DNA of 64,000 nucleotides from Pseudobutyrivibrio sp. (GTDB lineage Bacteria; Bacillota; Clostridia; Lachnospirales; Lachnospiraceae). The notes under the pieces were generated by a model, which was not told the origin of the DNA, made no database searches, and was given only the letters and a program-made list of their open reading frames with translations. The DNA is taken from NCBI RefSeq assembly GCF_015057185.1, contig NZ_SVEV01000021.1:1-64000 (forward strand). The letters are read 5' to 3'. Within the stretch, counting starts at the first letter, position 1. Each line of letters begins with the position of its first letter. Below are positions 21,551 through 37,902 of this stretch, piece by piece. The position numbers and the translations under genes were made by a program.

Positions 21551-22000
21551 TTAGTAGCGTTTTCTGCCTCTTTTATTATTAACTATTGCCAGAATAATAA
21601 GTGCCCCCAAAGCTACTCCAGCAAAGTCAATCCACATGTCTCTAATCTCTCCTGAGCGTCCCACAACAAAAAGCTGAATAGTCTCATCTATAAACGACAC
21701 AAACAACCCAACAAACGTAGGAACCGCAAACTTATTAAACGGACCATAAATATCATCAGACAAATCCGAACAAAGCAATGCGCCCAAAATTAAATACTCC
21801 AAAAAATGAGCCGTCTTCCTAACAATAAACATGCCATTTTCACTGCTCAACAAAAACGGAAAAATCTTCCCGAGCAACTCAAGAAATCTGCCGCTCTCAC
21901 CTTCCGAAACCACTGCCGGTTGCAAGCTGTGCCCCCAAATCACACACAACCACAGTAAAATAATAATTCTAAGTACTATTCTCTTCTTATTCATGCTCAT
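21551..22000 (-). CDS. VanZ-like membrane protein
   Basis: A roughly 150-residue protein with four hydrophobic segments and the VanZ-family pattern: IWGHSLQPA after helix 1, RKTAHFLEYLILGALL in helix 2, FVSFIDETIQLFVVGRSGEIRDMWIDFAG before the last helix. Function of stand-alone VanZ-like proteins is not settled. The start is uncertain: the ATG at 22000 lacks a clear Shine-Dalgarno, and the reading frame stays open upstream. The first ~15 codons lie inside the arm of the giant palindrome at 21953-22744. Its coding strand is unusually G/T-rich. Confidence 0.75.
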   Translation of the reverse strand: MSMNKKRIVLRIIILLWLCVIWGHSLQPAVVSEGESGRFLELLGKIFPFLLSSENGMFIVRKTAHFLEYLILGALLCSDLSDDIYGPFNKFAVPTFVGLFVSFIDETIQLFVVGRSGEIRDMWIDFAGVALGALIILAIVNNKRGRKRY

Positions 22001-22744
22001 TATTGTAGCATATTCACACCCCCATGGGGACACAATTTGCCACATTTTCTATTATTTGCCATCCGGCACCCTTCGCCCCGCCCGTCCAGGGCCTTCCACC
22101 CCTTCATATACACAATTTCGCGAATATTTCAGTTTTCCAATACGCAAAAGGGAGCATCCCGCATGTGTCTTTCTATGGATGAACTATTTTGAAAAATGTA
22201 TTTATACTGGGCGGACATACTAGTATATCCCAATTGGTACAACTCAGGTCTCAAGGGGGAATCGGGCTCATGTTACGTTCGCTAAGAAAAATTAAAAAGC
22301 AGGTTTTGTAGATTTAGACACCGTGCTTTATACGACATCGTGTCGCGTGTCGCACTTGCGCCGCCGTCCTAGCGGCGCATGCCTAAATCTTACAAAACCT
22401 GCTTTTATTTTTCTAAGCTCACTCCAAAATCGCCCAATTCCCCCTGAGCCTGAGTTGTACTAGTTTAGTTTTATTTTGTCCGCCCATTAAATACATTTTG
22501 CAAAATTGTACAGACATGAGAAAGACACATGCTAATAAAAGATGCGATTCTTTGCGTATTAGGAAAACGAAATATTCTTGCGAAGTGTATATGAAGGGGT
22601 GGAAGGCCCTGGACGGGCGGGGCGAAGGGTGCCGGATGACGTTGGGAGAGAAAATGTGGCAAAGGGTGGCAATGCAGAGGTGTGAATATGCTACAAAAAA
22701 GAGGACCTCATAAGTGAGATCCTCTTAGAATTATTATTTTACTG
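21953..22744. repeat. Giant imperfect palindrome, copy 1 (~0.8 kb)
   Basis: The two halves are inverted repeats about a centre near 22350. Perfect or near-perfect arm segments include a 21-base block at 21953-21973 / 22724-22744, a ~50-base block starting CCGGCACCCTTCGCCCCG at about 22072 and its complement ending about 22647, and GCAGGTTTTGTA (22299-22310) with its complement (22391-22402). The apex, 22319-22383, contains smaller hairpins (CGACATCGTGTCG, GCGCCGC/GCGGCGC). Conserved unpaired segments interrupt the arms. The outermost arms include vanZ codons and the htrA stop codon. It holds no credible gene. Confidence 0.85.
22695..22726 (-). terminator. Intrinsic terminator of htrA
   Basis: On the minus strand AAGAGGATCTCA/TGAGGTCCTCTT forms a stem followed by TTTTTT. 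It lies within the outer right arm of the giant palindrome and is not mirrored in the left arm. Confidence 0.85.
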
Positions 22745-24049
22745 GTCTGTGTCGAGTTTGTGGGTCAGCGTGACTTTTACGGTTTCTTCTTTGTAGTCAG
22801 CGTCATGCTTGGCCACGGTGATTTCTACGGTTGTGCCAGCGGATGTGTATTGCATGATGTTGTTGAGTGTGTTGAAGGATGTGACGGCGCGTCCGTTGAA
22901 GCCTGTGATTACGTCTTCAGCTTCGATTCCGGCTGCTTCAGCGCCTGAGCCTTCGATTACTTGTTTGATGTATACGCCAACTGGAATGTCGTATGCTTCA
23001 GATGTTTCAGTTGATACATCGAATCCTACGATGCCGAGGTAGCCGGCGTCCTCATCTGATACAACATCATTGTCAATCATTTGCTGGATGATGTCCCAAG
23101 CGTATGAGATTGGGATTGCGTAGCCCATACCTTCGACTGTAGTGTCAGAAAGTTTTGCTGATACAATTCCGATTACTTCGCCCTTGACGTTTAAAAGTGC
23201 TCCACCAGAGTTACCTGGGTTTACGGCTGCATCTGTCTGAATCAAGGAATTAGTAACTACGTTACCATCGCTGTCTGTGATAGATACTTCTCTGTCTAAT
23301 GCAGAAATGATACCTGTTGTAACTGATGTGCCGTAGCCCATTGCGTTACCGATTACAATGGCTGCTTCACCAACTACGCTGTTGTCTGAATCTCCAAGTG
23401 TGGCTACCTTTATTGCTGATAATGTTTCCTTAGGAATATCATCAACTTTTACCGATACAACGGCTAAGTCACATGAAGAATCTGTTCCTTTGATTTCACC
23501 CTCTACTGATTCTCCATCATTGAATGTGATGGTAAGGTCCTGTGAACCAGTAACTACGTGATTGTTGGTTGCAATGTAAATGTAGTCCTCATCCTGAGAG
23601 ATGATGATTCCGGAACCTGCAGAGGTCTGCTCCTCTTGGTATGGTCCGAACCATGTCTGATACTCAGTTAGACTGACATTTGTAACCTGAACGATTGCTG
23701 GCAATACGCTGTCTGCAACCTTTGATACATCTGTGGAAATGATGGTTGATTCAGTAGTAGATGAAGCAGTTGTGGCAGTTACATTGTCTAATATGTCTGA
23801 TGCTAATTCTTCACTGGCAGTCTCTTCTGCTGCACTTTCAGATGAGTTAGCAAAATATTTATTTGACACAAGTACCACCGACTGGAAGGATATTCCAGCC
23901 ACTAATCCAAATACTAGTGCTATCAACGCCGCGCGACCTAGCTTCGCAGGGAAATCTCTGTTTTTTTTAGGTTTACGAGGCTGTCTACCATCATCATATG
24001 GTGTCCACTGATAGTATGATTCACTTTGATTGTTGTTAAAATCACTCAT
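22739..24049 (-). CDS. HtrA/DegP-like membrane-anchored serine protease
   Basis: 436 residues: a cytoplasmic polar N-terminus, one transmembrane segment (~residues 35-57), a Ser/Thr-rich linker, a trypsin-like protease domain and one C-terminal PDZ domain. Catalytic residues are visible as NNHVV (His), SSCDLAVV (Asp) and NPGNSGGALL (Ser). It handles misfolded or envelope proteins outside the membrane. GGAGG lies eight bases before the ATG. The gene sits 65 bases after glmS. Near its 3' end the coding strand becomes C-rich, and its stop codon is inside the palindrome arm. Confidence 0.93.
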   Translation of the reverse strand: MSDFNNNQSESYYQWTPYDDGRQPRKPKKNRDFPAKLGRAALIALVFGLVAGISFQSVVLVSNKYFANSSESAAEETASEELASDILDNVTATTASSTTESTIISTDVSKVADSVLPAIVQVTNVSLTEYQTWFGPYQEEQTSAGSGIIISQDEDYIYIATNNHVVTGSQDLTITFNDGESVEGEIKGTDSSCDLAVVSVKVDDIPKETLSAIKVATLGDSDNSVVGEAAIVIGNAMGYGTSVTTGIISALDREVSITDSDGNVVTNSLIQTDAAVNPGNSGGALLNVKGEVIGIVSAKLSDTTVEGMGYAIPISYAWDIIQQMIDNDVVSDEDAGYLGIVGFDVSTETSEAYDIPVGVYIKQVIEGSGAEAAGIEAEDVITGFNGRAVTSFNTLNNIMQYTSAGTTVEITVAKHDADYKEETVKVTLTHKLDTDQ

Positions 24050-24114
24050 ATAAACGCCTCCATTTGTTATTCTGAGGGTAGTTTAGTCCCCCAATGTGAC
24101 GGTTAAGTGACGAA

Positions 24115-25947
24115 TTATTCAACAGTTACTGATTTTGCTAAGTTTCTTGGATGATCTACATCATAGCCTTTTCCAACAGAAACATAGTAGCCAAATAACT
24201 GAAGTGGAATAATTGCAAGAGAGTTAGTAAAGTACTTGTTTGTCTGTGGAATGTACATTACATAATCTGCAATTTCTTCGATATCTTCGTGTCCAACTGT
24301 AGTAACAGCAAGAATGAATGCTCCACGAGTCTTGCATTCTACTACGTTAGAAATTGTCTTTGCATAAATATTTTCCTGTGTGGCAACTGCACCTACAAGT
24401 GTGCCATCTTCGATAAGAGAAATAGTGCCGTGCTTGAGCTCACCTGCAGCATATGCCTCTGAGTGAATGTATGAAATCTCCTTGAGCTTTAATGAGCCTT
24501 CCATTGCGATGGCGTAGTCAATACCTCTACCAATGAAGAATACGTCCTTTGCTGCAACGAATCTGTTAGCGAACTTCTGGATACGCTCTTTATTTCCAAG
24601 GAGCATCTCGATCTGCTCTGGAAGCTTCTTAAGATCTGAAATAAGCTCCTTCATCTCGTCAGCTGAAAGTAATCCTCTTACGTCTGCAAACTTCATCGCA
24701 AGTAAGTAGAAGGCAATAAGCTGTGCTGAGTAAGCCTTTGTAGTAGCAACTGAAATCTCAGGACCAGCCCATGTGTACATAACCTTTTCAGCCTCACGAG
24801 CGATTGAAGAACCTACAACGTTAACAATTGCAAGAGTCATGTTGCCCATAGCGCGAGCCATACGAACAGCTTCCTTTGTATCAGCTGTCTCACCTGACTG
24901 CGAAACGGCGATAACAAGCTCGTTCTCCTGAAGGATTGGATTACGATATCTAAACTCTGAAGCGATGTCTACCTCTACTGGGATACGAGCCATCTCTTCA
25001 AATACATATTTAGCTGTAACACCTGTGTGGTAAGCACTACCACATGCTACGATACGGATACGAGAGATTGCTTTAATCTCTTCGTCTGTCATACCAAGCT
25101 CTTCAATATCTACAGTGTTGTTTTTGATACGTGGATTTAATGTATCACGAACAGTCTTTGGCTCCTCGTGAATTTCCTTGATCATAAAGTGGTCATAGCC
25201 ACCCTTTTCTGCTGCATCAACATCCCAATCGATAGTCTTTGACTGCTTCTCGATTGGCTGACCATCAACATCAAAGAACTCAATAGCGTCCTCTGTAAGT
25301 CTAGCGATTTCCTCGTTCTCGATGAAATAAACTTCACGAGTATATTTCAGAACTGCAGGCACGTCAGATGCGATTAAGTTACCATCCTTGCCTAGGCCAA
25401 CAATAAGTGGGCTATCCTTACGTACAGAGTAAATCTGATCTGGATAATCAGCAAAGATAATACCAAGTGCATAAGCACCCTCTACACGGTGCATAACCTT
25501 TGTTACACATGTAAGTGGGTCGTTGCCCTGCTTGTAGTAATAATCAAGTAAGTGAGCTACAACCTCTGTATCAGTCTCAGACTTGAATGTGTAGCCACGT
25601 CCAATAAGCTTTTCTTTGAGCTTTGCGTAGTTCTCGATAATACCATTGTGAACTACTGCGATTGTCTCTTCCTCATTAAGATGTGGGTGAGCGTTTACTT
25701 CGCTAGGCTCACCGTGAGTAGCCCAACGTGTATGACCGATACCGATTGTACCCTTCATGCTCTCGCCATCATGAGTTTTCTCGCTGAGAAGACGAAGACG
25801 TCCCTTAGCCTTCTCAAATTCTATTTTCTCTCCGTCAAAAACTGCCATTCCGGCAGAATCATATCCTCTATATTCAAGCTTGCTAAGTCCATCAAGCAAA
25901 ATAGGCGCTGCCTGTGACTTTCCTACATAACCAACTATTCCACACAT
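24115..25947 (-). CDS. glmS: Glutamine--fructose-6-phosphate aminotransferase (isomerizing)
   Basis: A 610-residue enzyme making glucosamine-6-phosphate, the first step of UDP-GlcNAc and cell wall synthesis. MCGIVGYVG exposes Cys2, the glutaminase nucleophile; two SIS domains follow, with VSQSGETADT and the C-terminal HPRNLAKSVTVE. The 134 bases upstream are too short and lack any recognisable glmS ribozyme. GAAAGGA precedes the ATG. Confidence 0.96.
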   Translation of the reverse strand: MCGIVGYVGKSQAAPILLDGLSKLEYRGYDSAGMAVFDGEKIEFEKAKGRLRLLSEKTHDGESMKGTIGIGHTRWATHGEPSEVNAHPHLNEEETIAVVHNGIIENYAKLKEKLIGRGYTFKSETDTEVVAHLLDYYYKQGNDPLTCVTKVMHRVEGAYALGIIFADYPDQIYSVRKDSPLIVGLGKDGNLIASDVPAVLKYTREVYFIENEEIARLTEDAIEFFDVDGQPIEKQSKTIDWDVDAAEKGGYDHFMIKEIHEEPKTVRDTLNPRIKNNTVDIEELGMTDEEIKAISRIRIVACGSAYHTGVTAKYVFEEMARIPVEVDIASEFRYRNPILQENELVIAVSQSGETADTKEAVRMARAMGNMTLAIVNVVGSSIAREAEKVMYTWAGPEISVATTKAYSAQLIAFYLLAMKFADVRGLLSADEMKELISDLKKLPEQIEMLLGNKERIQKFANRFVAAKDVFFIGRGIDYAIAMEGSLKLKEISYIHSEAYAAGELKHGTISLIEDGTLVGAVATQENIYAKTISNVVECKTRGAFILAVTTVGHEDIEEIADYVMYIPQTNKYFTNSLAIIPLQLFGYYVSVGKGYDVDHPRNLAKSVTVE

Positions 25948-26018
25948 ATATAATTATCCTTTCAGTGTTATTATCATGATTTATATATAAACCATATGAT
26001 TTTACTACGAAATATATA

Positions 26019-26058
26019 AAAAGTAAAATCTCCCCATAAAATATCAATTCATGGGGAG
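26019..26058 (-). terminator. Intrinsic terminator of the LCP gene
   Basis: CTCCCCAT/ATGGGGAG stem on the minus strand followed by ATTTTACTTTTT. It separates the LCP gene from glmS. Confidence 0.65.
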
Positions 26059-26081
26059 AAAAATCTTGAACTATTTAATTA

Positions 26082-27575
26082 TCAATCAGATTCCTGATTT
26101 ACTGTTGCACTGCCTTCGCTTGTACCTGTATCATTTTGAATCTTGTCGCTGATAGCATCTACTGCATCAGTTGTATCGTAATCAGTCTGATCATATAAGT
26201 ACTCGTGAAGCTTTGTAACGTTGGTTGTAAGTGTACATGGAACAACTAAGCTTCCCTTGCTACCATAGGTTCCAGTAGTCAAGTCAAATGGGAATCCTGT
26301 AGAATCCACAATTGAGTAATCTGCAACTGATGAAGCCATTGAAATAATCTGTGTAGATGACAAGCTAGTTGAGATTGATGGGAATACATCATCTGTAATC
26401 TTGTTAAGTGTAGCTATGTCAGCCTTCTTAGCTTTTTCAATGATTAGCTTTACAACTAAACGCTGATTTTCAGCTCTCTCATAATCGTTGTTAACTGCGT
26501 ATCTGTTTCGGCAATAACCAACTACCTGAGCACCATTTAATGTGTATGTACCTGGTGAATCAAAATAGCAATCGCTCATTTTGAATCCATCTTCTTCATT
26601 TGGATAGTAATCAAGTACATTTTCTACTTCGGCAATGTATCCGGCAAGTGCATTTTGATTTGTCTTTGGGTTGTCTGTGTTAATCATCTTTGATGTGATT
26701 TCAAGCTCTAATCCGCCCAAATCATCTACGATAGTAGCAAGCGCATAGAAGTCTACTGCAACGTACGCATCAATGGAAATATCAAGGTTCTCATTGAGCA
26801 TGTTACATGCTGATTCTGCGCCTCCAGCATTGTATGCATAATTACACTTTCTATATTTATCACTTGTAACCTTGAGGTAAGTATCACGCTGTACTGAAAC
26901 AAGCTTAACCTCTTTGGTGTCGTTATTGATTGCGGCAATCATGATGGTATCAGAATTACCAGAATCTGTATTTCCTGAAGAACGGTTGTCAACACCAAAT
27001 AAAGCTATGGTGGTGTAGTTGCTCAAGAGCTCTACTGTCTCTTCATCCAAGTCGTTAGTCTCAGCTTCATATTTCATGCCTGAGTTAATCTTATCAACCT
27101 TGTTCCAAAGGAAGAATACAAGCAACAATACTAAGATAATAACTATCTCAACTACAATGATAGCTGTTCTTGCTTTCTTCTTTTTGTTTTTCTTGCCACC
27201 CTTTCTACCAGATGGTTTTCTAGATGAAGATGAAGGTCTTCTATGTGAACCACCCTTAGATGATTTGTGTTTTGATGAGCTACCACGTCTAACTCCTGGT
27301 GCGCTAGCTGAGTGTGGCGCTGCTGAGCGCGAACGAGATGCTGATCTAGAAGCTGACTGAGATGCAGTTCTTCTAGGCTGTCCCTCATAAGACTCTGAGC
27401 CATACTCATACATATCAATATCATCCAATGAAAGATCGTAGCTAACACGATTGTTGTTTGATTCATACCCAGCTCTGCTACGTGTCTGCCCATTATTACT
27501 GCGATTTGTAGAACCTGTAGAACGCCCTCTAGTTCTACCGCTCATTCTCAAATCGTAATCTTCAAAATTACTCAT
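26082..27575 (-). CDS. LytR-CpsA-Psr (LCP) family cell wall polymer ligase
   Basis: About 497 residues. A long cytoplasmic region rich in Ser, Arg and Lys (ending with a KKGGKKNKKKKAR patch near residue 140) precedes one transmembrane helix and an extracellular LCP domain (GVDNRSSG, DTIMIAAINND, VQRDTYL, YCRNRYAVNNDYERAENQR). LCP enzymes attach undecaprenyl-linked polymers to peptidoglycan, which fits the polysaccharide genes upstream. The start at 27575 uses GGAG 12 bases upstream; the frame could begin at a TTG six codons earlier. A 147-base gap separates it from the glycan operon. Confidence 0.9.
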   Translation of the reverse strand: MSNFEDYDLRMSGRTRGRSTGSTNRSNNGQTRSRAGYESNNNRVSYDLSLDDIDMYEYGSESYEGQPRRTASQSASRSASRSRSAAPHSASAPGVRRGSSSKHKSSKGGSHRRPSSSSRKPSGRKGGKKNKKKKARTAIIVVEIVIILVLLLVFFLWNKVDKINSGMKYEAETNDLDEETVELLSNYTTIALFGVDNRSSGNTDSGNSDTIMIAAINNDTKEVKLVSVQRDTYLKVTSDKYRKCNYAYNAGGAESACNMLNENLDISIDAYVAVDFYALATIVDDLGGLELEITSKMINTDNPKTNQNALAGYIAEVENVLDYYPNEEDGFKMSDCYFDSPGTYTLNGAQVVGYCRNRYAVNNDYERAENQRLVVKLIIEKAKKADIATLNKITDDVFPSISTSLSSTQIISMASSVADYSIVDSTGFPFDLTTGTYGSKGSLVVPCTLTTNVTKLHEYLYDQTDYDTTDAVDAISDKIQNDTGTSEGSATVNQESD

Positions 27576-27722
27576 TTTAATAATTGTCTCCAATCTCTAG
27601 GTTAAAAATAGTAATACTGATTTAGTCTACTCTATAGTTTCAAACATTGTCAAGGATATCGTAATATTTCTGTCATATTTACTAAAATATTAGCAATTAT
27701 TTTTAGGAAAGGGTCTTTACTC

Positions 27723-29081
27723 CTAGTTTCCCTCAGATTCCATTCCAGGTAATATGTAATTTTCCACACCTATTGGGAGATTTTTATTGTAAAAACCATC
27801 TCCATTACCAATTAATTCCCCATGCTTATTCATAAGGTACTCATGAGATTCTGCTAAGCTAGTGTTATCTTTATTTTTGTATCTGGCAATACACTTGGGG
27901 ATGACAATAGTTCTGTAGCCTCTCTCTTTGGCCCTGAGGCAAAAATCTAGCATAGCATCTCTGCCTGACAGGTTCTTATCAAAACCATGGAGCATCCTAT
28001 AAACCTTGGCATCAATCATGCAGCAACCACTGTCCACCATAGATACATCTCTTGGCATACTGCCTAACCCCTCGTAGGTCTCTCTAAAAATCCTCTGTCC
28101 ATGAAAAGCAGGATACTGAATGCCATCTTCATCATATATATATCCCACATTATCTATAGTAAAACCACGGCCTATAAACCTAACACCCACCACGGCTACA
28201 TCAGGCTGATTTAAATAGGCATACATTCTTTTGGCATTATTTCTGGTAAATAACTTTACATTTTCATCCTTAAGGAACATATAGTCCCCGGAAAATCTTC
28301 TAAAGCTATTTTCATCATATTCAATGTGCCATTTTCTTAAATTAGGATCCACTCGGCCCTGACAGTTTACTCCAGAACGTTTTAAATAAGAAACTGCAAG
28401 AGCCATATGTTCATTACAATAGTAACGTTCCTCTGCTCTTATCTCCTTGGTCTTTGGCCTGTTGTCTATTCTTTTGTGATATAAAAGTGCGGGTATGTGC
28501 TGAATTTTTTCTTTTTTAAATGTTGCTCTAAGAAGATATTCATACATATAGGCAGTTTTTGCTTTTTCGTTAAACTCACCTAATCTCCTGTACATGCTAA
28601 CTGGCAAACAAATAAAATCACCAATATAGTTTGTCTGCAAAAGAAGTTCTTTATTAAAATCGCTTTTAAAATGTGGATTCATTCTGTCGAGACCAACAAT
28701 CTCGTCCGAATCTGTATAGATAATGGAATCAAAATCCTCTTCAGAATTTATCATCTCATTAAAAGAGCTGAGAGTCTTGGCACTAAGTCTGTCATGTTGA
28801 CCTAGATATACCAAATAATTACCCTCAGCAAAATGAGCGCCAATGTTATACGCATAGGCGCCTCCAGATTTCTTTTTAAGTCTTCTGTAATGAACCTTAT
28901 CAACAATGTCTGGGAAGAATTCCTTAATTGTCAACTCGATTGCATTAGAAGGATTATTGTCTAAGATATAAAGTTCAAATTCGCGATATTCCTGTTCGTC
29001 GATGGATTCAAGACAATCCTTGAACTGGTCCATGTCTGTGTCATTTGTCCATACGACTAAAGTAAAATATGCATCTGCCAC
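27723..29081 (-). CDS. Glycosyltransferase family 2-like protein
   Basis: 452 residues with an N-terminal GT-A domain (FELYILDNNPS, GAHFAEGNYLVYLGQHD as the DxD-like region, YTDSDEI) and a C-terminal portion with GCCMIDAKVYR and a DAMLDFCLRAKERGYR segment similar to polymer-synthesis GT2 enzymes. Start codon GTG overlaps the stop of the sugar transferase gene by one base (TAGTG), so translation is coupled. It likely adds a sugar to the lipid-linked intermediate made by that enzyme. No transmembrane segment is evident. Confidence 0.85.
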   Translation of the reverse strand: MADAYFTLVVWTNDTDMDQFKDCLESIDEQEYREFELYILDNNPSNAIELTIKEFFPDIVDKVHYRRLKKKSGGAYAYNIGAHFAEGNYLVYLGQHDRLSAKTLSSFNEMINSEEDFDSIIYTDSDEIVGLDRMNPHFKSDFNKELLLQTNYIGDFICLPVSMYRRLGEFNEKAKTAYMYEYLLRATFKKEKIQHIPALLYHKRIDNRPKTKEIRAEERYYCNEHMALAVSYLKRSGVNCQGRVDPNLRKWHIEYDENSFRRFSGDYMFLKDENVKLFTRNNAKRMYAYLNQPDVAVVGVRFIGRGFTIDNVGYIYDEDGIQYPAFHGQRIFRETYEGLGSMPRDVSMVDSGCCMIDAKVYRMLHGFDKNLSGRDAMLDFCLRAKERGYRTIVIPKCIARYKNKDNTSLAESHEYLMNKHGELIGNGDGFYNKNLPIGVENYILPGMESEGN

Positions 29082-30505
29082 TATTTCGAGCCCTTTCCGC
29101 CAAAAACAACAGCTATAGTTTTGAATAATAGTTTTATATCAAGTCCAAGTGACCAATTAGATATGTACTCTGTATCCAATGCCACTACTTTTTCAAAATC
29201 TTTTATGTCACTGCGACCACTTACCTGCCACATTCCTGTAAGACCTGGTTTGATAGAAAGTCTCGCCTTGTGGTGAAGTGCATATCTCTCATATTCGTCC
29301 TCAAGTGGTGGTCTAGTTCCAACCAGTGACATCTGTCCCATTAATACATTCCAGAACTGTGGCAGCTCATCGATAGAATATTTTCTAAGGAAATGTCCAA
29401 TTGGAATAATTCTAGGATCATTTTCCATTTTGAACATATTGCCTTGAATCTCATTCTGAGCCATTAATTCTTTTTTACGTTCTTCAGCATCCATATACAT
29501 GGTTCTGAATTTGTAAAATTTGAATCTACGACCGTTTTTGCCGATTCTAGTCTGAGTAAAAAATACTGGTCCTGGGGACTGTATTTTGATTATTGGGGCA
29601 AAAATAATAAATGCTATAAAAGCAAACACAAGACCTACTAATGCTCCCACAATGTCCATAAGACGTTTTAGGAATGCCTGTCTGTTGTTGGCGATATGCA
29701 TACTTGTTGTCAAAACAACATAATCCCCGTAGGTCTCCATTATTCTATTAGGCATAAGATTGTTGGTGTGAATGAGGGACATGTGAACTGTAAGTCCCTG
29801 TTCAACTAATCTACCTGCCAAGCTCTCTTCGCTAGCTCTAGTATTTCCATCAAGGAAAACCTCATCAACAACATTAGTTCTCAAATATTCAAACAATGTA
29901 TCTGCCGAAGCAATAACTGGAATTCCTTGGATTTCCTGGCCTGTCATATCCACGTCAACAACAGCAACGCCCTCAACCTTGAACTCTGTGTATGGGCTAT
30001 GGGCAATTTCTGAGAGACAGTGGTCAACTGTAGTGGACTCTGCAACTACAATCATTGACGATTTATTAACATCAAGAAGCTTTCTGCGTCTAATGAATCG
30101 TTTCCATATAACACGGAACAAATAGGTAAACACTACCATACCTACTGCAGAATAGCCAATAGCTTCTCGTGAGTAGTAGTATGATGTCTTGTTGGCATAC
30201 ATGTAAATGAATATGCCTAAGAAATTAACAAGACAGTGCCAAATCGTCGAGGTTATTTCCTGATATTTAGTTCGTCGCAAAATGCCAGTATAGGTCTCTG
30301 TGAAAAGTACTCCTGTCAAATCAATGAATGGCAGAATTTTTGCCAAGCCCTGATAAAGGTTGTACCACTCAAAGCGATCCAGGAAGATAATACTTCCGTC
30401 GAACTTAAGGTAAACACCCACGAATAATGCAAGCTCGGCAGCAATCATATCTAGTATTATAAAATCCAGATGCTTGACCCATGAACGTTTTTTCTTTCTA
30501 TACAC
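29081..30505 (-). CDS. Undecaprenyl-phosphate sugar phosphotransferase (WbaP/WcaJ-like)
   Basis: 474 residues that start glycan assembly by moving a sugar-1-phosphate to undecaprenyl phosphate. Four or five N-terminal membrane helices (~20-130), a central nucleotide-binding-like region, another helix (~285-310), and the catalytic bacterial sugar transferase domain: KFYKFRTMYMDAEERK, SIDELPQFWNVLMGQMSLVGTRPP and KPGLTGMWQVSGRSD. Start codon is GTG with GGGAGA upstream. It is in the operon acyltransferase-GT2-UDPGP-this gene-GT2. The sugar (hexose or HexNAc) cannot be told. Confidence 0.92.
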   Translation of the reverse strand: MYRKKKRSWVKHLDFIILDMIAAELALFVGVYLKFDGSIIFLDRFEWYNLYQGLAKILPFIDLTGVLFTETYTGILRRTKYQEITSTIWHCLVNFLGIFIYMYANKTSYYYSREAIGYSAVGMVVFTYLFRVIWKRFIRRRKLLDVNKSSMIVVAESTTVDHCLSEIAHSPYTEFKVEGVAVVDVDMTGQEIQGIPVIASADTLFEYLRTNVVDEVFLDGNTRASEESLAGRLVEQGLTVHMSLIHTNNLMPNRIMETYGDYVVLTTSMHIANNRQAFLKRLMDIVGALVGLVFAFIAFIIFAPIIKIQSPGPVFFTQTRIGKNGRRFKFYKFRTMYMDAEERKKELMAQNEIQGNMFKMENDPRIIPIGHFLRKYSIDELPQFWNVLMGQMSLVGTRPPLEDEYERYALHHKARLSIKPGLTGMWQVSGRSDIKDFEKVVALDTEYISNWSLGLDIKLLFKTIAVVFGGKGSK

Positions 30506-30544
30506 GATTTTCTCCCTTAAACTATGGGCACTAGCCCATTAAGT

Positions 30545-31771
30545 TTAGAGTGTTACTCCGTTTTTCTTGAGTAATTCTTTTGCACTGTCTACAGAATCAA
30601 CACCGTGAAGATTCTTAATTGGTGCAAACTCTCTCACTCTGTCAACTTCGAATGCAAGATTGCTATCCATCATGTGAACCATATCAAGCACTAAAAGTTC
30701 AAATTTGTATCCGTTTGGTTGTTCAGGAGAAACCTTGTTGCCCTCTGCATCAATATGAGCAATCTTTTTCTCCACCACGTGAACAAGCATATTATTGTTA
30801 ACAATCTCATCTAGCTTTTCAAGTGAGAACAAATAATTAAGGATAACGCCATATTTGTAAAGAAGGCTACCATCCTCCGCTTTTGCCTCTGCCATTTCAT
30901 CAGACATCTCGTAGTACTCTACGATAGAAGGCTTTCCGTCCTCTAAGCAAAGAAGTCCCATTTTCTCCTGTGGGTCAACTTTACGAACAACCTTTGAGCC
31001 TGCCTGGAAGCCACCAGCAATTGTAGCACCAACAAAAACAGGATCAGCGATTCTCTGGCAAACATTATCAACAGCAAAAATGTTAATCCACTTAACACCC
31101 TTTGCCTTTAAGTCTTTGTCAAGACCTGCCTTTACCATAGATGCATACCAGCCACCGTTTCCATTAGGAGATGTTGCAAGACGTCCCTTTTCCTCAAGAA
31201 GAAGCTTGCCATCGTAATCAACAGCACATGCCATATCCTGAATGAAGTACTGAACATACTCTGGGTTGTATCCAAAATAATCATGCTCCTCAAAGAAAGA
31301 TCTGGTAGTCTGATCATTTTTTTCACTTGTCATAATATAGAGGGGAATAAAGCAGCCTGCCTGTTTAACCACATCCATAAGATTGTTAATAAGACACTGG
31401 AAAATATAGAGCTCTCTAGTCTCGCCAACATTAAAGCATCCTTTTGGCAAATCAAAGCCAAGACGTGTGCCCATTCCACCAGCAAGAAGAACTGCAGCAA
31501 CCTCACCCTTTTTGAGTGCTTCAAGTCCTACAGCCTCGAACTCATCATGTCTCTTTTCAATCTCTGATATCTCTACAGCAGGAGGAACGGAAAACTCTCC
31601 ACGTTTAGCAGAATCTCCGCCTCCAATTAACTTAAAATCAGACCAGTTGATATTCTCAATCTGGTTAAGAAGTTCTTTTTGATTTTCTGCAGTAAGCTCA
31701 TCAAAATACTTCATGACGTGCTCCTGCTTGTTTTCCCTCAATACATTAATAGCTTGCTCTTTAGTAAACAT
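30545..31771 (-). CDS. UDP-sugar pyrophosphorylase (UDPGP family)
   Basis: 408 residues of the eukaryote-like UDPGP family (not GalU). LLAGGMGTRLGFDLPKGCFN is the nucleotide-binding loop; SPNGNGGWY and VDNVCQRIADP line the active site as in UDP-GlcNAc pyrophosphorylases. It makes a UDP-activated sugar from UTP and a sugar-1-phosphate, UDP-GlcNAc or UDP-glucose/galactose being most likely, for the surrounding glycosyltransferases. Located mid-operon. Confidence 0.88.
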   Translation of the reverse strand: MFTKEQAINVLRENKQEHVMKYFDELTAENQKELLNQIENINWSDFKLIGGGDSAKRGEFSVPPAVEISEIEKRHDEFEAVGLEALKKGEVAAVLLAGGMGTRLGFDLPKGCFNVGETRELYIFQCLINNLMDVVKQAGCFIPLYIMTSEKNDQTTRSFFEEHDYFGYNPEYVQYFIQDMACAVDYDGKLLLEEKGRLATSPNGNGGWYASMVKAGLDKDLKAKGVKWINIFAVDNVCQRIADPVFVGATIAGGFQAGSKVVRKVDPQEKMGLLCLEDGKPSIVEYYEMSDEMAEAKAEDGSLLYKYGVILNYLFSLEKLDEIVNNNMLVHVVEKKIAHIDAEGNKVSPEQPNGYKFELLVLDMVHMMDSNLAFEVDRVREFAPIKNLHGVDSVDSAKELLKKNGVTL

Positions 31772-31787
31772 TATAAATTATTCTCCT

Positions 31788-33638
31788 TTACTTATCTAGC
31801 TTAAATGAATAATCAAAGGCCTTTAGCGAAAGATTAGGATTGTAGTATGGGTCCCCCTTGTCCAAAACTGACTTCCATTTAGACATAAAATAATTTGTCT
31901 CCGCTTCTAAACGACCTTTTTTCGTAGAATCATTATTATCTAATCCACGACTCAGCGATTCTAAATGATACCATTCTGAAAACGGATTGTAAACGCATAG
32001 AAGTTTCTTCTCTCTAAGCTTCAAGCAGTAATCAACATCGTTAAATGCCACTGCCAATCCCTCATCAAAGCCTCCAACACTGAGGAAATCCTCTTTGGAG
32101 GTAAGCAGGCATGCTCCAGTAACCGCCGATAAATCCTGCACACAGGTGCTTCGATAAAAATATCCAACCTGCTCGCGACCGCTACCTAAGAACTGAGAAT
32201 TTGCAACTCCGCCGAGTCCCAAAATAAGTCCTGCATGTTGAACGGTATTATTGCCATAGTACAATCTGGCACCAACGGCGCCTACATCACTACGTCTCAC
32301 AAATCCCATCATCTCTGAAATGGAATCTGGATTTATCATTCTTGTATCATTATTTAATAGGAGTATATACTCTCCATTTGCTTTGTGTACACCATAATTA
32401 ACAAGAGCAGAGAAATTAAAATTACCTCTGGTGCTTGGGTGTTCTTTGGTGTAATCATATACCTTTGCATTGATATCACTTCTAAGCTCTAGTTCTCTGT
32501 AATATCCACAAAGCTCTGGGTCATTTGAATTGTTTTCCACAATTACAAACTCAATATTATTATATTCGTTTTTATCAATAATGCTATCTATGCACTGCTG
32601 TAAATCTCTCAGGTGATTCATGTTTGGAATCACGATTGAAACAAGAGGATTGCCCGGCCAATTATATCTGGTACGGTAATAGCCCAAGTGAGTATCCAGC
32701 TCAACTGTGGCAGGAATGCCAAGTCGATTGTAATGCTCCTCCACAGCTCTTCTGCCATTTTCATATGCATACATTTTGGCCTCTGGATGGTCTGCTGTAG
32801 AAGCAGGATGTGTTCTCCAGTGGTAAAGGACCCTAGGGATATGATAAATATTGGTGCACTTTTCAAGGACACGTAAATCAAAATCATGATCCTGGGCTCC
32901 ATCAAACTCTGATTTGATGCCTCCACTGGCCTTTACTATATCTGCACGAACTACAAATAAATGGGTGATATAGTTATGGCTACAAAGTAAATCAATATTG
33001 AAATCAGATTTAAAATGAGGAAGGAAATATTCCTTGCCCTCCATATCGATTTTGTCCTCGTCTGAATAGAGAGCCTCAATAGTAGGATCCTCATTCAAAG
33101 CCTTTGCTATATAAAACATGGCATCAGCAGTAATCAAATCATCATGATCCGTAAATCCGATATAATCTCCTGTAGCCAATTCCAAAGCTGCGTTGGTATT
33201 TCCTGCAATACCTGTATTATCTGTAAGCTTTTTGTAGATGATTCTATCGTCCCATTGACCACCAGTTGCCTTTTTAATAATATCCTCAAGTCCGTCCTTT
33301 GGGCTGCCATCTCCCAGGCAAAGCTGCCAGTGTGGATATGTCTGACCTGTAAATGATTTGATTAATTCTGTAAGGAAATACTCTGGTGTGTTGTAAAGAG
33401 GAATGACAATGCTGATAACAGGATTGTATTCAAAGTGAGTATTTCTCTGAGCATCTAGCTCTTCTTTTGTAACTGGGTGTGCCTTTAAAAACTGTCTGTA
33501 GCTATAATGCTCCTGGTCATGGCCCATGGCCTTGCGGATAGTTTTAGCAACGGTTTTCTTTATTCCATAATGCTGTAAATAAAGAAGCCCCTTTTCTATT
33601 TTACTTGTTGGTTCTTTGTATTGTTTTATTTCACTCAT
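31788..33638 (-). CDS. Two-domain family 2 glycosyltransferase
   Basis: 616 residues containing two GT-A domains in tandem. The first begins ISIVIPLYNTPEYFL and has DHDDLI and YSDEDKI; the second begins VSIVIPNMNHLRDL, has LLLNNDTRMI and ends with the GGFDEGLAVAFNDVDYCLKLRE signature. This two-domain arrangement is common in rhamnan- or O-antigen-type polymer synthesis. No transmembrane segments, so it is cytoplasmic or peripheral. Six bases after the acyltransferase gene and 17 before UDPGP. Confidence 0.88.
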   Translation of the reverse strand: MSEIKQYKEPTSKIEKGLLYLQHYGIKKTVAKTIRKAMGHDQEHYSYRQFLKAHPVTKEELDAQRNTHFEYNPVISIVIPLYNTPEYFLTELIKSFTGQTYPHWQLCLGDGSPKDGLEDIIKKATGGQWDDRIIYKKLTDNTGIAGNTNAALELATGDYIGFTDHDDLITADAMFYIAKALNEDPTIEALYSDEDKIDMEGKEYFLPHFKSDFNIDLLCSHNYITHLFVVRADIVKASGGIKSEFDGAQDHDFDLRVLEKCTNIYHIPRVLYHWRTHPASTADHPEAKMYAYENGRRAVEEHYNRLGIPATVELDTHLGYYRTRYNWPGNPLVSIVIPNMNHLRDLQQCIDSIIDKNEYNNIEFVIVENNSNDPELCGYYRELELRSDINAKVYDYTKEHPSTRGNFNFSALVNYGVHKANGEYILLLNNDTRMINPDSISEMMGFVRRSDVGAVGARLYYGNNTVQHAGLILGLGGVANSQFLGSGREQVGYFYRSTCVQDLSAVTGACLLTSKEDFLSVGGFDEGLAVAFNDVDYCLKLREKKLLCVYNPFSEWYHLESLSRGLDNNDSTKKGRLEAETNYFMSKWKSVLDKGDPYYNPNLSLKAFDYSFKLDK

Positions 33639-33643
33639 TGTCT

Positions 33644-34708
33644 CTATTTCAACTTTAATAATTGTTTTTCGAAGCAGTGCCAGCTGATAAATGCAAGTGG
33701 GATAACTATGAGGAGTGATACTCCCAAGTTAACATAAGGGTCCATGTGAAGGACCTGATATCCATCAGGGCTCTTGCCCATAACATCAATCACTCGCTGC
33801 TGTACGAAAAACGATAAAATATATACTCCATAAGAAATATCGCCGAACTTGTTATAGTATTTGGAAATCCAAAAATAACTAAATCCGACATACATAATAA
33901 TATACGCACCAAATATCGTAAATGCGATTTCAAAATCAGCAAAGTAAACTGTAGCGAAAAGACCTACGATTGCCACAAGTAACAGCTTCCAAGACATAAT
34001 AATTTTGTCTCTGAAAATGTAATATGCAGAGCCTACCTGAAACTCTAAGGTAAGGCGTCCCACATTGGCCATGACGCTATTTGGTGTATGAAGTCCGTAG
34101 CATGCCACAAGGTACAAGGCCAAGGAGATTCCGATACATGCAAAAATTGATTTTTTATATTTTTTAACTAGTGGTACAAGGGCTATTACTAAAAAGTAAC
34201 ATGCCACCTCATAGGCCAAGGTCCATATACTTCCATTTGAGCTTTGATTAATATGGAAAGCAAACACTCCCGGAAGTCTATTGGAAGATGATAAAAAAAT
34301 CAAATTCAAAAGATATGTAGTTACATGCCCAGTTTTGTCTCCTGCGTAGTAATCCGCTGTAGAGAGTGTGGAAAACATAGGACCAAATATAAATGCTGTA
34401 GACAAAATAAAAAGTGCTAATAGCGGCCAGATTCTAAGGAATCTTGCTTTGAAATATTTCCCTAGGCTACTGCTTCGTTCATAGCTTCGGTAAATAAGAA
34501 AGCCGCTAATAACAAAAAATATATCAACTCCAACCTGACCTGACAGGGCTTTGTGGAAGGTGAGTGTGTACATCAAGTCCTCCTCCAGGTTGGCCTGACA
34601 AAGTGCAAATGAATGCATGTACATGACCATCAAAGCTCCCACCAGCCTCACAAGGTTGAGATTATTATCTCTACCATGAGATATTTTTTCTAATGTATTA
34701 TTTCCCAT
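33644..34708 (-). CDS. Acyltransferase family 3 membrane protein
   Basis: About 354 residues with some ten membrane helices. The opening NLVRLVGALMVMYMHSFAL (conserved His) and the GVDIFFVISGFLIYRSYE region are typical of acyltransferase 3 / OafA-type proteins that O-acetylate surface glycans. The start at 34708 has AAGGA eight bases upstream; the frame stays open to 34765. First gene of the glycan operon, divergent from the LTA-synthase-like gene. Confidence 0.9.
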   Translation of the reverse strand: MGNNTLEKISHGRDNNLNLVRLVGALMVMYMHSFALCQANLEEDLMYTLTFHKALSGQVGVDIFFVISGFLIYRSYERSSSLGKYFKARFLRIWPLLALFILSTAFIFGPMFSTLSTADYYAGDKTGHVTTYLLNLIFLSSSNRLPGVFAFHINQSSNGSIWTLAYEVACYFLVIALVPLVKKYKKSIFACIGISLALYLVACYGLHTPNSVMANVGRLTLEFQVGSAYYIFRDKIIMSWKLLLVAIVGLFATVYFADFEIAFTIFGAYIIMYVGFSYFWISKYYNKFGDISYGVYILSFFVQQRVIDVMGKSPDGYQVLHMDPYVNLGVSLLIVIPLAFISWHCFEKQLLKLK

Positions 34709-34823
34709 TAAAATGTTCCTTATGTTAAGTCTTTTTAACTGATTCATTTTATCATATAGCCACATCTGTTACAAATTGATATAATCTTTTTGATTTTTAT
34801 TGTTTTAAAAGGGGGATCAAGCC

Positions 34824-36446
34824 TTGTCAAAATTCATCAAAGAAAAAGAGTCCCGCAGGACTCTTCTTACAATAATAAAGTTTGTTTTTGCTATTGTACT
34901 CACCCTACTCAGCTACACAACCACGAAGGATGTCACCTATTTGATAGTGGGGCTTCCTGAGCTATTGCTGATTTTTGTAATCTACAACCTACTTGTGGAT
35001 ACAAAAGTCATTTTTAGATTGATAGCAGACCTTTTGTTTTTCATTTATGTAGCCCAAATGCTTGTGCTTTATTTTGGAAACAGCTACGTTACGCTAACCA
35101 TGCTAAAGAATGTACAATTCCTCAAGGACCTAGGTGGACGCGCCGTTGCCTATATATTAGGAACAGCTCTTGTACTTGCCATTGTTTTTATGCCTGGCAA
35201 GCGCATTATAAACAAGGTGAACAAGAAAATCCTAATTATTCCTATGGTGATACTTCTTATTTTAGAAATTGGAATTCATGGGGCATACAAAAGATACAGT
35301 CCTGTGCAAAGCTTTGGTACCATATTTGCCAGCGAAATTCGCTACCAGCAGGTAAAGCGTGCTCAGGTCAATCCAGAGCTCGCCCTTGAAACCTACTACA
35401 AGGCATCTCTTGATGATGCCATTGCAAAGCCTGATGACCTTCCAGAAAATCCAAACATAATCATGATTTTCACCGAAGGCTTATCCTACAACATCATTGA
35501 AGATGAGCGAAGCATAATGCCAAACTTGGCAGCATTCGAAGAAGAATCACTAACATTTAAAAACTACTACAACCACACCTTCCCAACACTTCGTGGTGTT
35601 CAGGGACAGCTATACAGTGGCTACAAGCTAGATGACAATGAAGTTGGAAACAACCTCATCTCAATTCAAAGCATACTCGCCAATGAAGGTTACAACACCT
35701 CATTCATCAATGTAGAACCATTTAACGACATATTCAATGAATACTGCGACAACCTTGGATTTGAGAATATCATCACCGATCCCGAAAACGTACATGGTGA
35801 AGCAGATGGCATGACCGACAGTGAAGCCTACCGCTTACTAATGGATTCCGCCACTGAGCTTTCTCAAGGCGATGAACCATTCTTCCTAAGCATATACACC
35901 TTTGGAACACACGTATCCTTCGATACACCTGACAGCAATTGCGTTTTCGAAAACGGCTCCAACGAAGTGCTAAACCGCTTCTACTACTTAGATGCCTACC
36001 TAGGTCAATTCCTCGAAGAGTTCAAAGCATCCGAATTAGCCGACAACACAATCATCGTATTTACAACGGATCACGCCACATACGCTGACCAAAAATACTC
36101 CAACGCATTCCCTGACTACAGAAGAGATTGCACTGACGTGGATACCATTCCACTATTCATCTACTACAAAGGAATCGACCACCAGGAAATAGACGTCAAC
36201 GGCAAAAACTCACTTTGCCTCGCCCCTACCATCCTGGACTACCTAGACATCGACTCCGAAAACTACTTCCTTGGCACCAGCCTCTTCGACGCCAAGGCAA
36301 GCACCGACTTCGACAGCACCTTCTACGATGCCTCATACCTGGTCTCAACCAAGGACTGCAGCATCCGCTACCTAGAAGACCTGGAGGTAGACGACTTCCT
36401 CAGCCAGGTGCTCTCCTACTACACAGCCCTCGAAGCCGACCGCTAA
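34824..36446 (+). CDS. LTA synthase-like phosphoglycerol transferase (sulfatase fold)
   Basis: 540 residues: four or five N-terminal membrane helices (~1-160) and an extracellular sulfatase-fold domain. IFTEGLSYNII carries the metal-binding Glu, NHTFPTLRGVQGQLYSG the nucleophilic Thr, and FTTDHATYAD the metal-binding Asp-His pair. The family adds glycerol phosphate or related groups to lipid anchors or surface polymers. Start is TTG with AAGGGGGAT upstream. Codon use shifts along the gene: the 5' third is typical, while the last ~250 codons use mostly C-ending codons. The final ~30 codons match, inverted, the 3' end of the convergent M15 gene. Confidence 0.88.
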   Translation: MSKFIKEKESRRTLLTIIKFVFAIVLTLLSYTTTKDVTYLIVGLPELLLIFVIYNLLVDTKVIFRLIADLLFFIYVAQMLVLYFGNSYVTLTMLKNVQFLKDLGGRAVAYILGTALVLAIVFMPGKRIINKVNKKILIIPMVILLILEIGIHGAYKRYSPVQSFGTIFASEIRYQQVKRAQVNPELALETYYKASLDDAIAKPDDLPENPNIIMIFTEGLSYNIIEDERSIMPNLAAFEEESLTFKNYYNHTFPTLRGVQGQLYSGYKLDDNEVGNNLISIQSILANEGYNTSFINVEPFNDIFNEYCDNLGFENIITDPENVHGEADGMTDSEAYRLLMDSATELSQGDEPFFLSIYTFGTHVSFDTPDSNCVFENGSNEVLNRFYYLDAYLGQFLEEFKASELADNTIIVFTTDHATYADQKYSNAFPDYRRDCTDVDTIPLFIYYKGIDHQEIDVNGKNSLCLAPTILDYLDIDSENYFLGTSLFDAKASTDFDSTFYDASYLVSTKDCSIRYLEDLEVDDFLSQVLSYYTALEADR

Positions 36447-37175
36447 TCTCTGTGGTCTCTCCACTTTAGGGCACCACCCACCCTTCTTGGGTCCGGGGCT
36501 TGCCACCCTTGTAAACACAGTTTTGCGAATATTTGAGTTTTCCAATATGCAAAAGTGAGCATCCCGCATGTGTCTTTCTATGGATGAACTATTTTGAAAA
36601 GTGTTTTCTTACTAGGTGGACACTGCAGATATATTAGCTGTGCATCTCAGGGCTCAGGGGACTTGGGCTCATGTTACGTTTGCTAAGAAAATTTAAAAAA
36701 CAGGATTATCATATATTGGCACCGTGCTTTATACGACATCGTGTCGCGTGTCGCACTTGCGCCGCCATCCTAGCGGCGCATGCCAATATATTGATAATCC
36801 TGTTTTTAATTTTCTAAGCGCACTCCAAAATCGCGCCAAGTTCCCCTGAGCCTGAAATGCACAATTATTTATAGTTTTTTGTGTGTCCACCTAAAGAAAA
36901 CAGCTTTTCAAAATTGTACAGACATGAGAAAGACACATGCCAATAAAAGATGCGAGTCTTTGCATATTAGGAAAACCAAATATTCTTGCAAAGTGTCTAC
37001 AAGGGTGGCAAGCCCCGGACCTGGAAGGGTGGGTGGTGTAGTTAATCCAAGGACCACAGAGGTTAGCCCGCGGTTGCTTGCGAGACCTGTTAGTCGAAGG
37101 AGAGCACCAAGGCTTGTTGCCGTAACTTGGCTGCCTACTGCAGGGACTTTTCGAAGTGCTGGTAGTCCTTGGATG
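36345..37175. repeat. Giant imperfect palindrome, copy 2 (~0.8 kb)
   Basis: Inverted halves about a centre near 36752. Paired blocks include CAGGATTATC (36701-36710) with its complement (36793-36802), the GC-rich CCACCCACCCTTC block near 36475 with its complement near 37030, CTCTGTGGTC (36448-36457) with 37052-37061, GGTGCTCTCC (36407-36416) with 37099-37108, and CCAAGGACT (36349-36357) with 37164-37172. The apex (36720-36784) differs from copy 1 by one base in 65. The outer arms are the 3' coding ends of two convergent genes. Small ORFs inside are not credible genes. Confidence 0.85.
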
Positions 37176-37902
37176 AGCGCCAGCTGCCGCCCCATTCGAA
37201 GCCGTGGGCGATGAAGAGCTGGTAGGCAAGGTCGTTTTCGTCGATTTTGTGGTCGAAGTCCTGGGTGCGGTCAACGTAGGCAGTGCTGTTGGCCGGTTCT
37301 ACGTTGAGGCGTCCGTTGACGGTTTTTACGTATGGGTTGTACAGTGGGTTGATGTCTATTGCTAGGCCGTAGCCGTGGTTGGAAACCGTTGTGCTGTGGC
37401 TAATGAATCTAAAGTTGAAGGCAGAGGAATTGTTATCTGCCATGGATTTTTCATCGTCGGCATCGTATTCATCAACTAGTTTGATTTTTTCAATTTGGTA
37501 GCCAGCATCGTAGAGCTGTCTGAAGATGTCCAGTAAATCGTCGGCGATGGCTTCGTTGCAAATGATTTCGCCTTCGTGGGTTTCACCATCAAAGCCTACG
37601 TGTAAAACATGCAGGTATCGTAAATCCGATAATGGGACAGTGCAATTGTCCTTGTAGGATTTTCCTTTTATTCTGGCGAAGATTTCGCTGTTCTCGTCGA
37701 ATTCTAAGGCGTAGAATTCTTCATCTACGTTTATTTCATTTGCTTCCGCTGTAGTCATAGTTGATTCTCCCTGTGTTTTAGTGCTCGCTGTAGTTGTATT
37801 TGCTGTAGTGGTTTCTGTTACCTGCGCTGCGGCTGAACTTTCTCCACAACCTTGGCATGCCAAAAGTGTAATTATCAACAATGCATATATCTTTTTCGAC
37901 AT
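37135..37902 (-). CDS. M15-family peptidoglycan peptidase, lipoprotein
   Basis: 255 residues; lipoprotein signal MSKKIYALLIITLLACQGCG, Thr-rich linker, then an M15-type zinc peptidase domain. NHGYGLAIDINPLYNP gives the His...Asp zinc ligands and DYQHFE the final His. M15 enzymes are D,D-carboxypeptidases or L-Ala-D-Glu peptidases; this short C-terminal domain is closest to the M15C/CwlK kind, from memory. Toward the 3' end the coding strand becomes C-rich and matches, inverted, the end of the LTA-synthase-like gene. Confidence 0.85.
   Translation of the reverse strand: MSKKIYALLIITLLACQGCGESSAAAQVTETTTANTTTASTKTQGESTMTTAEANEINVDEEFYALEFDENSEIFARIKGKSYKDNCTVPLSDLRYLHVLHVGFDGETHEGEIICNEAIADDLLDIFRQLYDAGYQIEKIKLVDEYDADDEKSMADNNSSAFNFRFISHSTTVSNHGYGLAIDINPLYNPYVKTVNGRLNVEPANSTAYVDRTQDFDHKIDENDLAYQLFIAHGFEWGGSWRSSKDYQHFEKSLQ

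Follow-up and report, generated by a model that had tools for sequence, protein, structure and literature searches.

The 64,000-nt stretch of Pseudobutyrivibrio sp. that we analyzed (assembly GCF_015057185.1, contig NZ_SVEV01000021.1, positions 1-64,000 of the forward strand, hereafter the window) carries two giant palindromes. Comparison across relatives suggests that they are copies of a dispersed intergenic repeat made of two layers, a core that would be selected as an RNA and outer arms that would be kept complementary by template switching, a reading to which we give a probability of roughly 60%.

Both inverted repeats reported by a first-pass annotation of the window are present. Copy 1 spans 21953-22744, with arms that are 100% complementary at 22060-22113/22585-22638 (54 nt) and at 21953-21973/22724-22744 (21 nt). 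Copy 2 is 97% complementary at 36490-36518/36993-37021 and 94% at 36442-36457/37052-37067, and its palindrome is well supported over ~36407-37108; the greater extent first ascribed to it depends on an outermost pairing, 36344-36357/37164-37177, that is weak (14 nt, 93%) and falls within two open reading frames (ORFs). As originally described, the two 65-base apices differ at one base, and paired stems change on both arms between the copies (GGTTTTGTA/TACAAAACC versus GGATTATC/GATAATCC). A 42-base left segment, taken at first for a poorly paired bulge, is indeed common to both copies but is not wholly unpaired, as its GCATGTGTCTTTCT pairs at 14/14 positions in each.

The first-pass annotation could not match the palindromes to any named RNA. 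Both apices in fact match the TwoAYGGAY RNA (RF01731) on the minus strand, with 61.7 bits (E 8.2e-08) and 63.6 bits (E 3e-08) against a gathering cut-off of 43. They share with this family a score above the cut-off and a GGA loop, and differ from it in that the 168 positions of the model account here for just the tip of a much longer palindrome (0.6-0.9 kb). The apex is also found well beyond this assembly: RF01731 was matched in 24 of 41 genomes (24/25 of the genus, including the window's own, and 0/16 genomes from other families of the order) and, in a wider draw with six candidates scored per genome, in 65 of 397 Lachnospiraceae genomes (58/334 genera). The search in relatives, the copy count and the survey of gene context proposed with the first description reveal a dispersed repeat. 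The window's genome (G000; 3.25 Mb, 62 contigs) has 23 RF01731 apices, 21 of them in complete copies with no contig end inside, and the 24 sampled congeners hold from 0 copies (the single-contig genome G009) to 49 (G021); all counts are minimum values, as contigs frequently break off within an element and weak matches were filtered out. By a rough ORF rule, the 21 complete copies lie between convergent (8), tandem (13) or divergent (0) genes. In other genera, pairs of RF01731 matches on opposite strands were seen within ~1 kb of each other (G428:C1, G081:C123, G408:C152, G052:C47 and C33).

The 21 complete G000 copies form palindromes of roughly 0.6-0.9 kb, and the core shared by the 23 aligned copies spans roughly 460 nt. 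Outside this core the arms are largely unrelated from copy to copy, yet they match within each copy (21/21 complete copies): outer arms score 48.5-100, compared with a median of 11.6 and a maximum of 26.8 in the cross-copy background, which excludes palindromy by chance. Outward from the core come a near-perfect stem (S1, 49% G on its 3′ arm), a less-paired stretch, a second stem (S2) and further short stems. The S2 word GGGCAAG occurs in 5/22 copies (0.22 expected from mononucleotide shuffles), and beyond ~90 nt no between-copy similarity stood clearly above such shuffles. When positions 22040-22120 of copy 1 were searched against G000, the only matches were the segment itself and its partner arm; for this one tested copy, S1 was therefore rejected as a copy of another site. 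Paired outer arms are also seen in other genera, where those of 9/12 fetched apices outscore all 132 mismatched controls, and in G021, where they score at least 80 in 33 of 39 loci tested and below 40 in five. The outer arms of the G021 loci L057, L059, L079, L085 and L091 are weak or lost, and these loci are possible decay products. In one G000 copy, L004, the left arm of the core is enlarged by ~120 nt that contain hairpin-like repeats.

Isolated mismatches can tell apart the levels at which pairing is kept, as selection on RNA should tolerate G.U over A.C, whereas DNA complementarity alone should leave the two equally frequent. We counted unique isolated mismatches at loci scoring at least 80, using the same fixed zone boundaries in every species; of 129 loci, 100 yielded data. 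The G.U:A.C ratio was 43:21 in the core (p 0.008), 32:37 in S1 and 14:21 further out (46:58 for the arms together), and the contrast between core and arms was significant (Fisher p = 0.004). If mutation rates were strand-biased, every zone should be shifted in the same way, yet core and arms differ. In an alignment of 20 apices, 12 of them from other genera, 15 of 19 predicted pairs showed a two-sided change that kept the pair. These sequence comparisons support the view that the core is under selection as an RNA structure on the minus strand. The selected structure initially proposed for the whole hairpin thus stands for apex and core, given the RF01731 match, the compensated pairs and the G.U excess on that strand, and is not supported for the outer arms, which have no G.U excess, whose S1 is rewritten on both arms between the orthologous copies of G018 and G041, and whose stems overlap genes. 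The arm-to-arm conversion that the first-pass annotation had set against an RNA reading does appear to lie behind the covariation of these outer arms, which we read, with moderate confidence, as an effect of copying at the DNA level.

Twelve orthologous pairs of copies were compared, and the nine with deep palindromes were used for S1; L205/L296, L205/L211 and L211/L296 were left out, their palindromes being only ~74 nt deep, and L105/L208 was retained despite a non-orthologous left flank (identity 0.383). In three of the nine informative pairs, the flanks are far better conserved than the S1 zone, and both copies are still palindromic. Between G018 and G041, identity is 0.968/0.979 in the flanks, 0.982 in the core and 0.48-0.59 in the S1 zone (x175-225). 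The columns that pair in G018 include 15 with changes in both arms that preserve pairing, 1 with changes in both arms that abolish it, and 5 altered in a single arm. The copies of G004 and G008, each palindromic by itself and sitting on contigs of 0.7-0.9 Mb, have flank identities of 0.915/0.881 and 0.26-0.56 at x175-250. Matched arm changes at low flank divergence are clear in G018/G041, and G004/G008 and G012/G016 give a mixed picture. A differing core between conserved arms is seen in G008/G022 and, less cleanly, in G002/G022, as expected if cores were exchanged between copies. Some orthologous sites hold the element in opposite orientation with respect to the flanking sequence; one such pair, L028/L029 (97.8% over 579 bp, inverted, with collinear flanks), comes from two fragmented drafts in which the orientation may be an assembly choice.

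Both window copies have occupied and empty orthologous sites, which would fit past mobility or, formally, loss instead of gain. For copy 1, 14 of 28 relatives have only 41-198 bp, with terminator-like hairpins, separating the htrA match from the vanZ match, a distance that leaves no room for the element. Other sequence occupies the site in G004 (710 bp) and G009 (about 1 kb), and the gap in G016 is 1.86 kb. In G001 and G042 the match is split or partial, and in the other nine relatives the fetched sequence contains no match to vanZ. At the copy 2 site, one of the 24 relatives with the carboxypeptidase gene (L182) has its partner gene in the sequence fetched, and there 12 bp separate the two stop codons.

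The outer stems of the window copies overlap flanking gene ends. The vanZ arm of the copy 1 S4 stem has TTACTG at its end, complementary to CAGTAA at the end of htrA; of 12 relatives examined, 9 could be read at this vanZ position and none of these has TTACTG, and CAGTAAAATA is found at the htrA end in 2 of 12. On the vanZ side of the S3 stem, the TATGCTACAA part is promoter-like and similar to the sequence preceding vanZ in relatives, and the remainder is dissimilar. A promoter consensus matched twice in or near copy 1, both times on the plus strand, with 1.8 matches expected, which leaves a promoter reading unsupported. In copy 2, an inverted partner to the coding end of the sulfatase-family gene lies on the opposite side, and in G004 and G008 the terminator-like hairpins flanking the element share inverted sequence across both sides.

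A two-layer mechanism could produce this pattern. Apex and core would carry the TwoAYGGAY RNA, presumably transcribed, and selection on the RNA of that strand would keep its pairs. In the arms, replication or repair would use one arm as the template for the other by switching templates within the folded strand. A mutation in one arm would be copied onto the opposite arm, so that S1, S2 and the stems beyond stay complementary; blocks could be replaced in the two arms at once, and the palindrome would take in bordering host sequence (gene ends and upstream regions). The process, as we infer it, would account for most of the observations. Template switching as described in PMC8794818 and PMC8604942 copies one arm onto the other, homogenizes arms and makes multi-base matched changes; spacer inversion is among its reported products (PMC8604942, which also cites long inverted repeats). 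Such quasipalindrome mutations thus resemble the present case in arm homogenization, multi-base matched changes and spacer inversion, but the two papers concern RNA hairpins and short repeats in yeast genes, whereas here a single bacterial family with much longer arms occupies dozens of sites per genome.

The function of the apex may lie in binding CsrA. The 2010 discovery paper calls TwoAYGGAY "probably" an RNA and probably not cis-regulatory (PMC2864571), and PMC4333381 proposes its loops as CsrA sites. G000 encodes CsrA (PF02599, E 6.1e-26), which was found, in the same draw of 397 Lachnospiraceae genomes, in 62/65 with RF01731 and 148/332 without (odds ratio 25.7, p = 4e-16, uncorrected for phylogeny and motility); the three that carry RF01731 and lack CsrA are G211, G362 and G401, G362 being a single contig. 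The first loop contains GGA in 22/22 G000 copies scored (of 23), 12/12 in G021, 18/19 elsewhere in the genus and 10/12 in other genera, in a scoring that covered 12/40 fetched G021 loci and 19/66 other genus loci and missed the second loop of the G000 copies. Both loops have GGA in 9 of the 12 G021 copies scored. The TwoAYGGAY apex with its GGA loop is thus a candidate CsrA ligand. It resembles the CsrA-sequestering RNAs CsrB, CsrC, RsmX, RsmY and RsmZ in its GGA hairpin loop and its co-occurrence with CsrA; a G000 copy differs in having one apical GGA loop.

Several observations weigh against the two-layer reading. Template switching gives no new sequence and leaves unexplained both the new S1 block of G041 and the regular length of S1, which ends 45-57 positions from the core in 16/20 copies. 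Pairing is 0.63 in the less-paired segment and 0.86 in S2 (Wilcoxon p 0.003), and such a fixed arm layout is not predicted by blind arm copying alone. S1 also retains some similarity between copies (mean 9.47 versus 7.66 in mononucleotide shuffles). In six of the nine informative pairs S1 is roughly as conserved as the flanks, and by column count the changes are mostly matched only in G018/G041, both fragmented drafts; because of fragmentation, single cases in G018, G041 and G005 carry an assembly risk. G004/G008 has 14 two-sided columns that pair, 19 two-sided columns that do not in that alignment, because the blocks align poorly, and 7 one-sided columns, and in G012/G016 one-sided changes (11) outnumber matched ones (4), with 5 further two-sided columns unpaired. 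The best match of the copy 1 S3 stem in relatives has 5-8 mismatches of 18, which argues only weakly for its host origin. On the CsrA side, besides the uncorrected association and the limit of six scored candidates per genome behind it, the G000 copies depart from the RF01731 family in having no GGA in the second apical loop, which in the window copies is degenerate (CACGATG).

Two alternatives place the origin of the arms in selection or in the host. The entire 0.6-0.9 kb hairpin could be one RNA whose full stem is selected, the arms differing by ordinary compensatory substitution, and the RNA-level signals in the core, the matched arm changes and the presence, in most copies, of a less-paired segment about equally far from the core would agree with this. 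We nevertheless regard it as rather unlikely, as S1 and the outer arms lack a G.U excess, the S1 of G018/G041 differs at about half its positions, mostly in matched fashion, against 2-3% in the flanks, and the stems extend into coding sequence. Insertion of the element into pre-existing host palindromes that then serve as outer arms would explain why arms are locus-specific and why the outer stems of G004/G008 lie on terminator-like hairpins. By inspection, though, the empty sites (14 relatives for copy 1, one for copy 2) hold no such GC-rich palindrome, and host palindromes were on this ground rejected as the arm source; with an S1 of similar length in 16/20 copies and the residual between-copy similarity also speaking against it, this origin is very improbable.

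An active DNA-hairpin mobile element, whose insertion would build the matched arms through an enzyme preferring gene 3′ ends, would fit the spread of 0-49 copies per genome, the empty sites, the absence of divergent contexts among the G000 copies (8 convergent, 13 tandem) and the regular S1 length. It is unlikely in our view: a Y1 transposase is present in 10/29 genus genomes and missing from the 49-copy G021, so it was rejected as a general mobilizer, and in G018/G041 S1 changed with core and flanks orthologous, which makes re-insertion unnecessary. The transposase search covered Y1 genome-wide and IS110 relatives of one copy; IS110 was likewise rejected as a systematic partner, since TwoAYGGAY sequence flanks it at only one of 30 loci, that of the starting copy L325. 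That short-read assembly created or homogenized the arms is scarcely credible. Contigs do end inside elements and many comparison genomes are metagenome bins, but palindromic copies also occur in G002 (3 contigs) and G011 (2 contigs), so an artefact is not a general explanation; the arms are moreover locus-specific, and the S1 of copy 1 is found at its own site only.

Repetitive extragenic palindromes (REP), bacterial interspersed mosaic elements (BIME) and elements resembling miniature inverted-repeat transposable elements are the nearest known DNA repeats, being dispersed, intergenic and palindromic, and the four ORFs of 95-130 aa overlapping the two window palindromes match no Pfam family. 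The window repeats differ in that their arms change from locus to locus and that copy-rich G021 lacks a Y1 transposase. REP repeats are also much shorter than 0.6-0.9 kb. Window positions 22120-22580 had no match in either plasmid or phage collections, and no description of such giant palindromic repeats was found in the open-licence literature. At L302:1095-2684 (G005), an IS110-family element (402-aa transposase, PF01548 and PF02371) interrupts a TwoAYGGAY apex, an insertion absent from the orthologous copies L201 and L293; insertion sequences are reported to be able to target REPs (PMC1525189).

In E. coli, SbcCD attacks long palindromes. Loss of SbcCD was rejected as a requirement for the repeat, as G019, G002, G015 and G011 carry 8-10 copies each; in this search, made for SbcD, the model scored above cut-off in three of 29 genus genomes (G019, G002 and G015) and was split in G011. 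Most other genus genomes have only a partial SbcD match, in a protein of ~364-371 aa. Such a match adjoins a TwoAYGGAY element at G000:C11:18009-18302 (by L001), G018:C81, G041:C60 and G005:C239, apparently one site. The features of the two window copies and their neighbouring genes are collected in Table 1.

Table 1 Features of the two giant palindromes and of the genes beside them (window coordinates).
Feature	Position	Strand	Basis or remark
Copy 1, whole palindrome	21953-22744		arm complementarity
Copy 1, apex, TwoAYGGAY RNA (RF01731)	22270-22429	-	61.7 bits
Copy 1, core, sequence common to G000 copies	22117-22584	-	approximate limits, read from alignment
Copy 1, S1 left arm, locus-specific, GC-rich	22060-22113		complementarity
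Copy 1, S1 right arm	22585-22638		complementarity
Copy 1, S2 left arm	22036-22050		
Copy 1, S2 right arm	22649-22663		
Copy 1, S3, vanZ side, just upstream of vanZ (minus strand)	22003-22020		
Copy 1, S3 inverted partner, beside htrA terminator	22679-22696		18-nt perfect
Copy 1, S4, within vanZ codons (LRIIILL)	21953-21973		21-nt perfect
Copy 1, S4, spanning stop codon of HtrA-like gene	22724-22744		21-nt perfect
Terminator-like hairpin and T run after HtrA-like gene	22695-22726	-	stem 22726-22699
VanZ-like gene by copy 1	21551-21995	-	PF04892; ORF listed to 22045, start ~21995 inferred from relatives
HtrA-like protease gene by copy 1	22739-24049	-	PF13365 and PDZ families
Copy 2, well-supported palindrome	36407-37108		arm complementarity
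Copy 2, apex, TwoAYGGAY RNA (RF01731)	36671-36830	-	63.6 bits, E 3e-08
Copy 2, core	36520-36992	-	approximate limits
Copy 2, S1 left arm	36472-36518		
Copy 2, S1 right arm	36993-37038		
Copy 2, S2, spanning stop codon of sulfatase-family gene	36442-36457		
Copy 2, S2 partner arm	37052-37067		
Copy 2, S3, in 3′ coding end of sulfatase-family gene	36407-36422		88% complementary
Copy 2, S3 partner arm	37093-37108		
Sulfatase-domain protein gene, convergent neighbour of copy 2	34824-36446	+	PF00884
D-Ala-D-Ala carboxypeptidase (M15) gene, convergent neighbour of copy 2	37135-37902	-	PF13539

The co-occurrence with CsrA offers comparative support for the proposal that TwoAYGGAY, a motif described in 2010 for which we found no function in the open-licence literature, may be a CsrA-binding RNA. 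As a more speculative idea, possible though doubtful, the repeat might be a self-extending palindromic mobile RNA gene, in which a CsrA-binding RNA, amplified to dozens of copies in the form of a giant DNA hairpin, has its two arms rewritten together and progressively converts flanking promoters, terminators and coding ends into its own sequence, generating large-scale apparent covariation without selection on RNA pairing. Selected RNA structures are usually demonstrated by covariation. In this repeat the core bears the RNA signature in its mismatches, and the strongly covarying arms beside it do not; the strand test of G.U against A.C may accordingly be a useful general check on covariation. 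With its many copies, the family would also offer natural replicates in which to measure how one arm is copied onto the other in very long bacterial palindromes.

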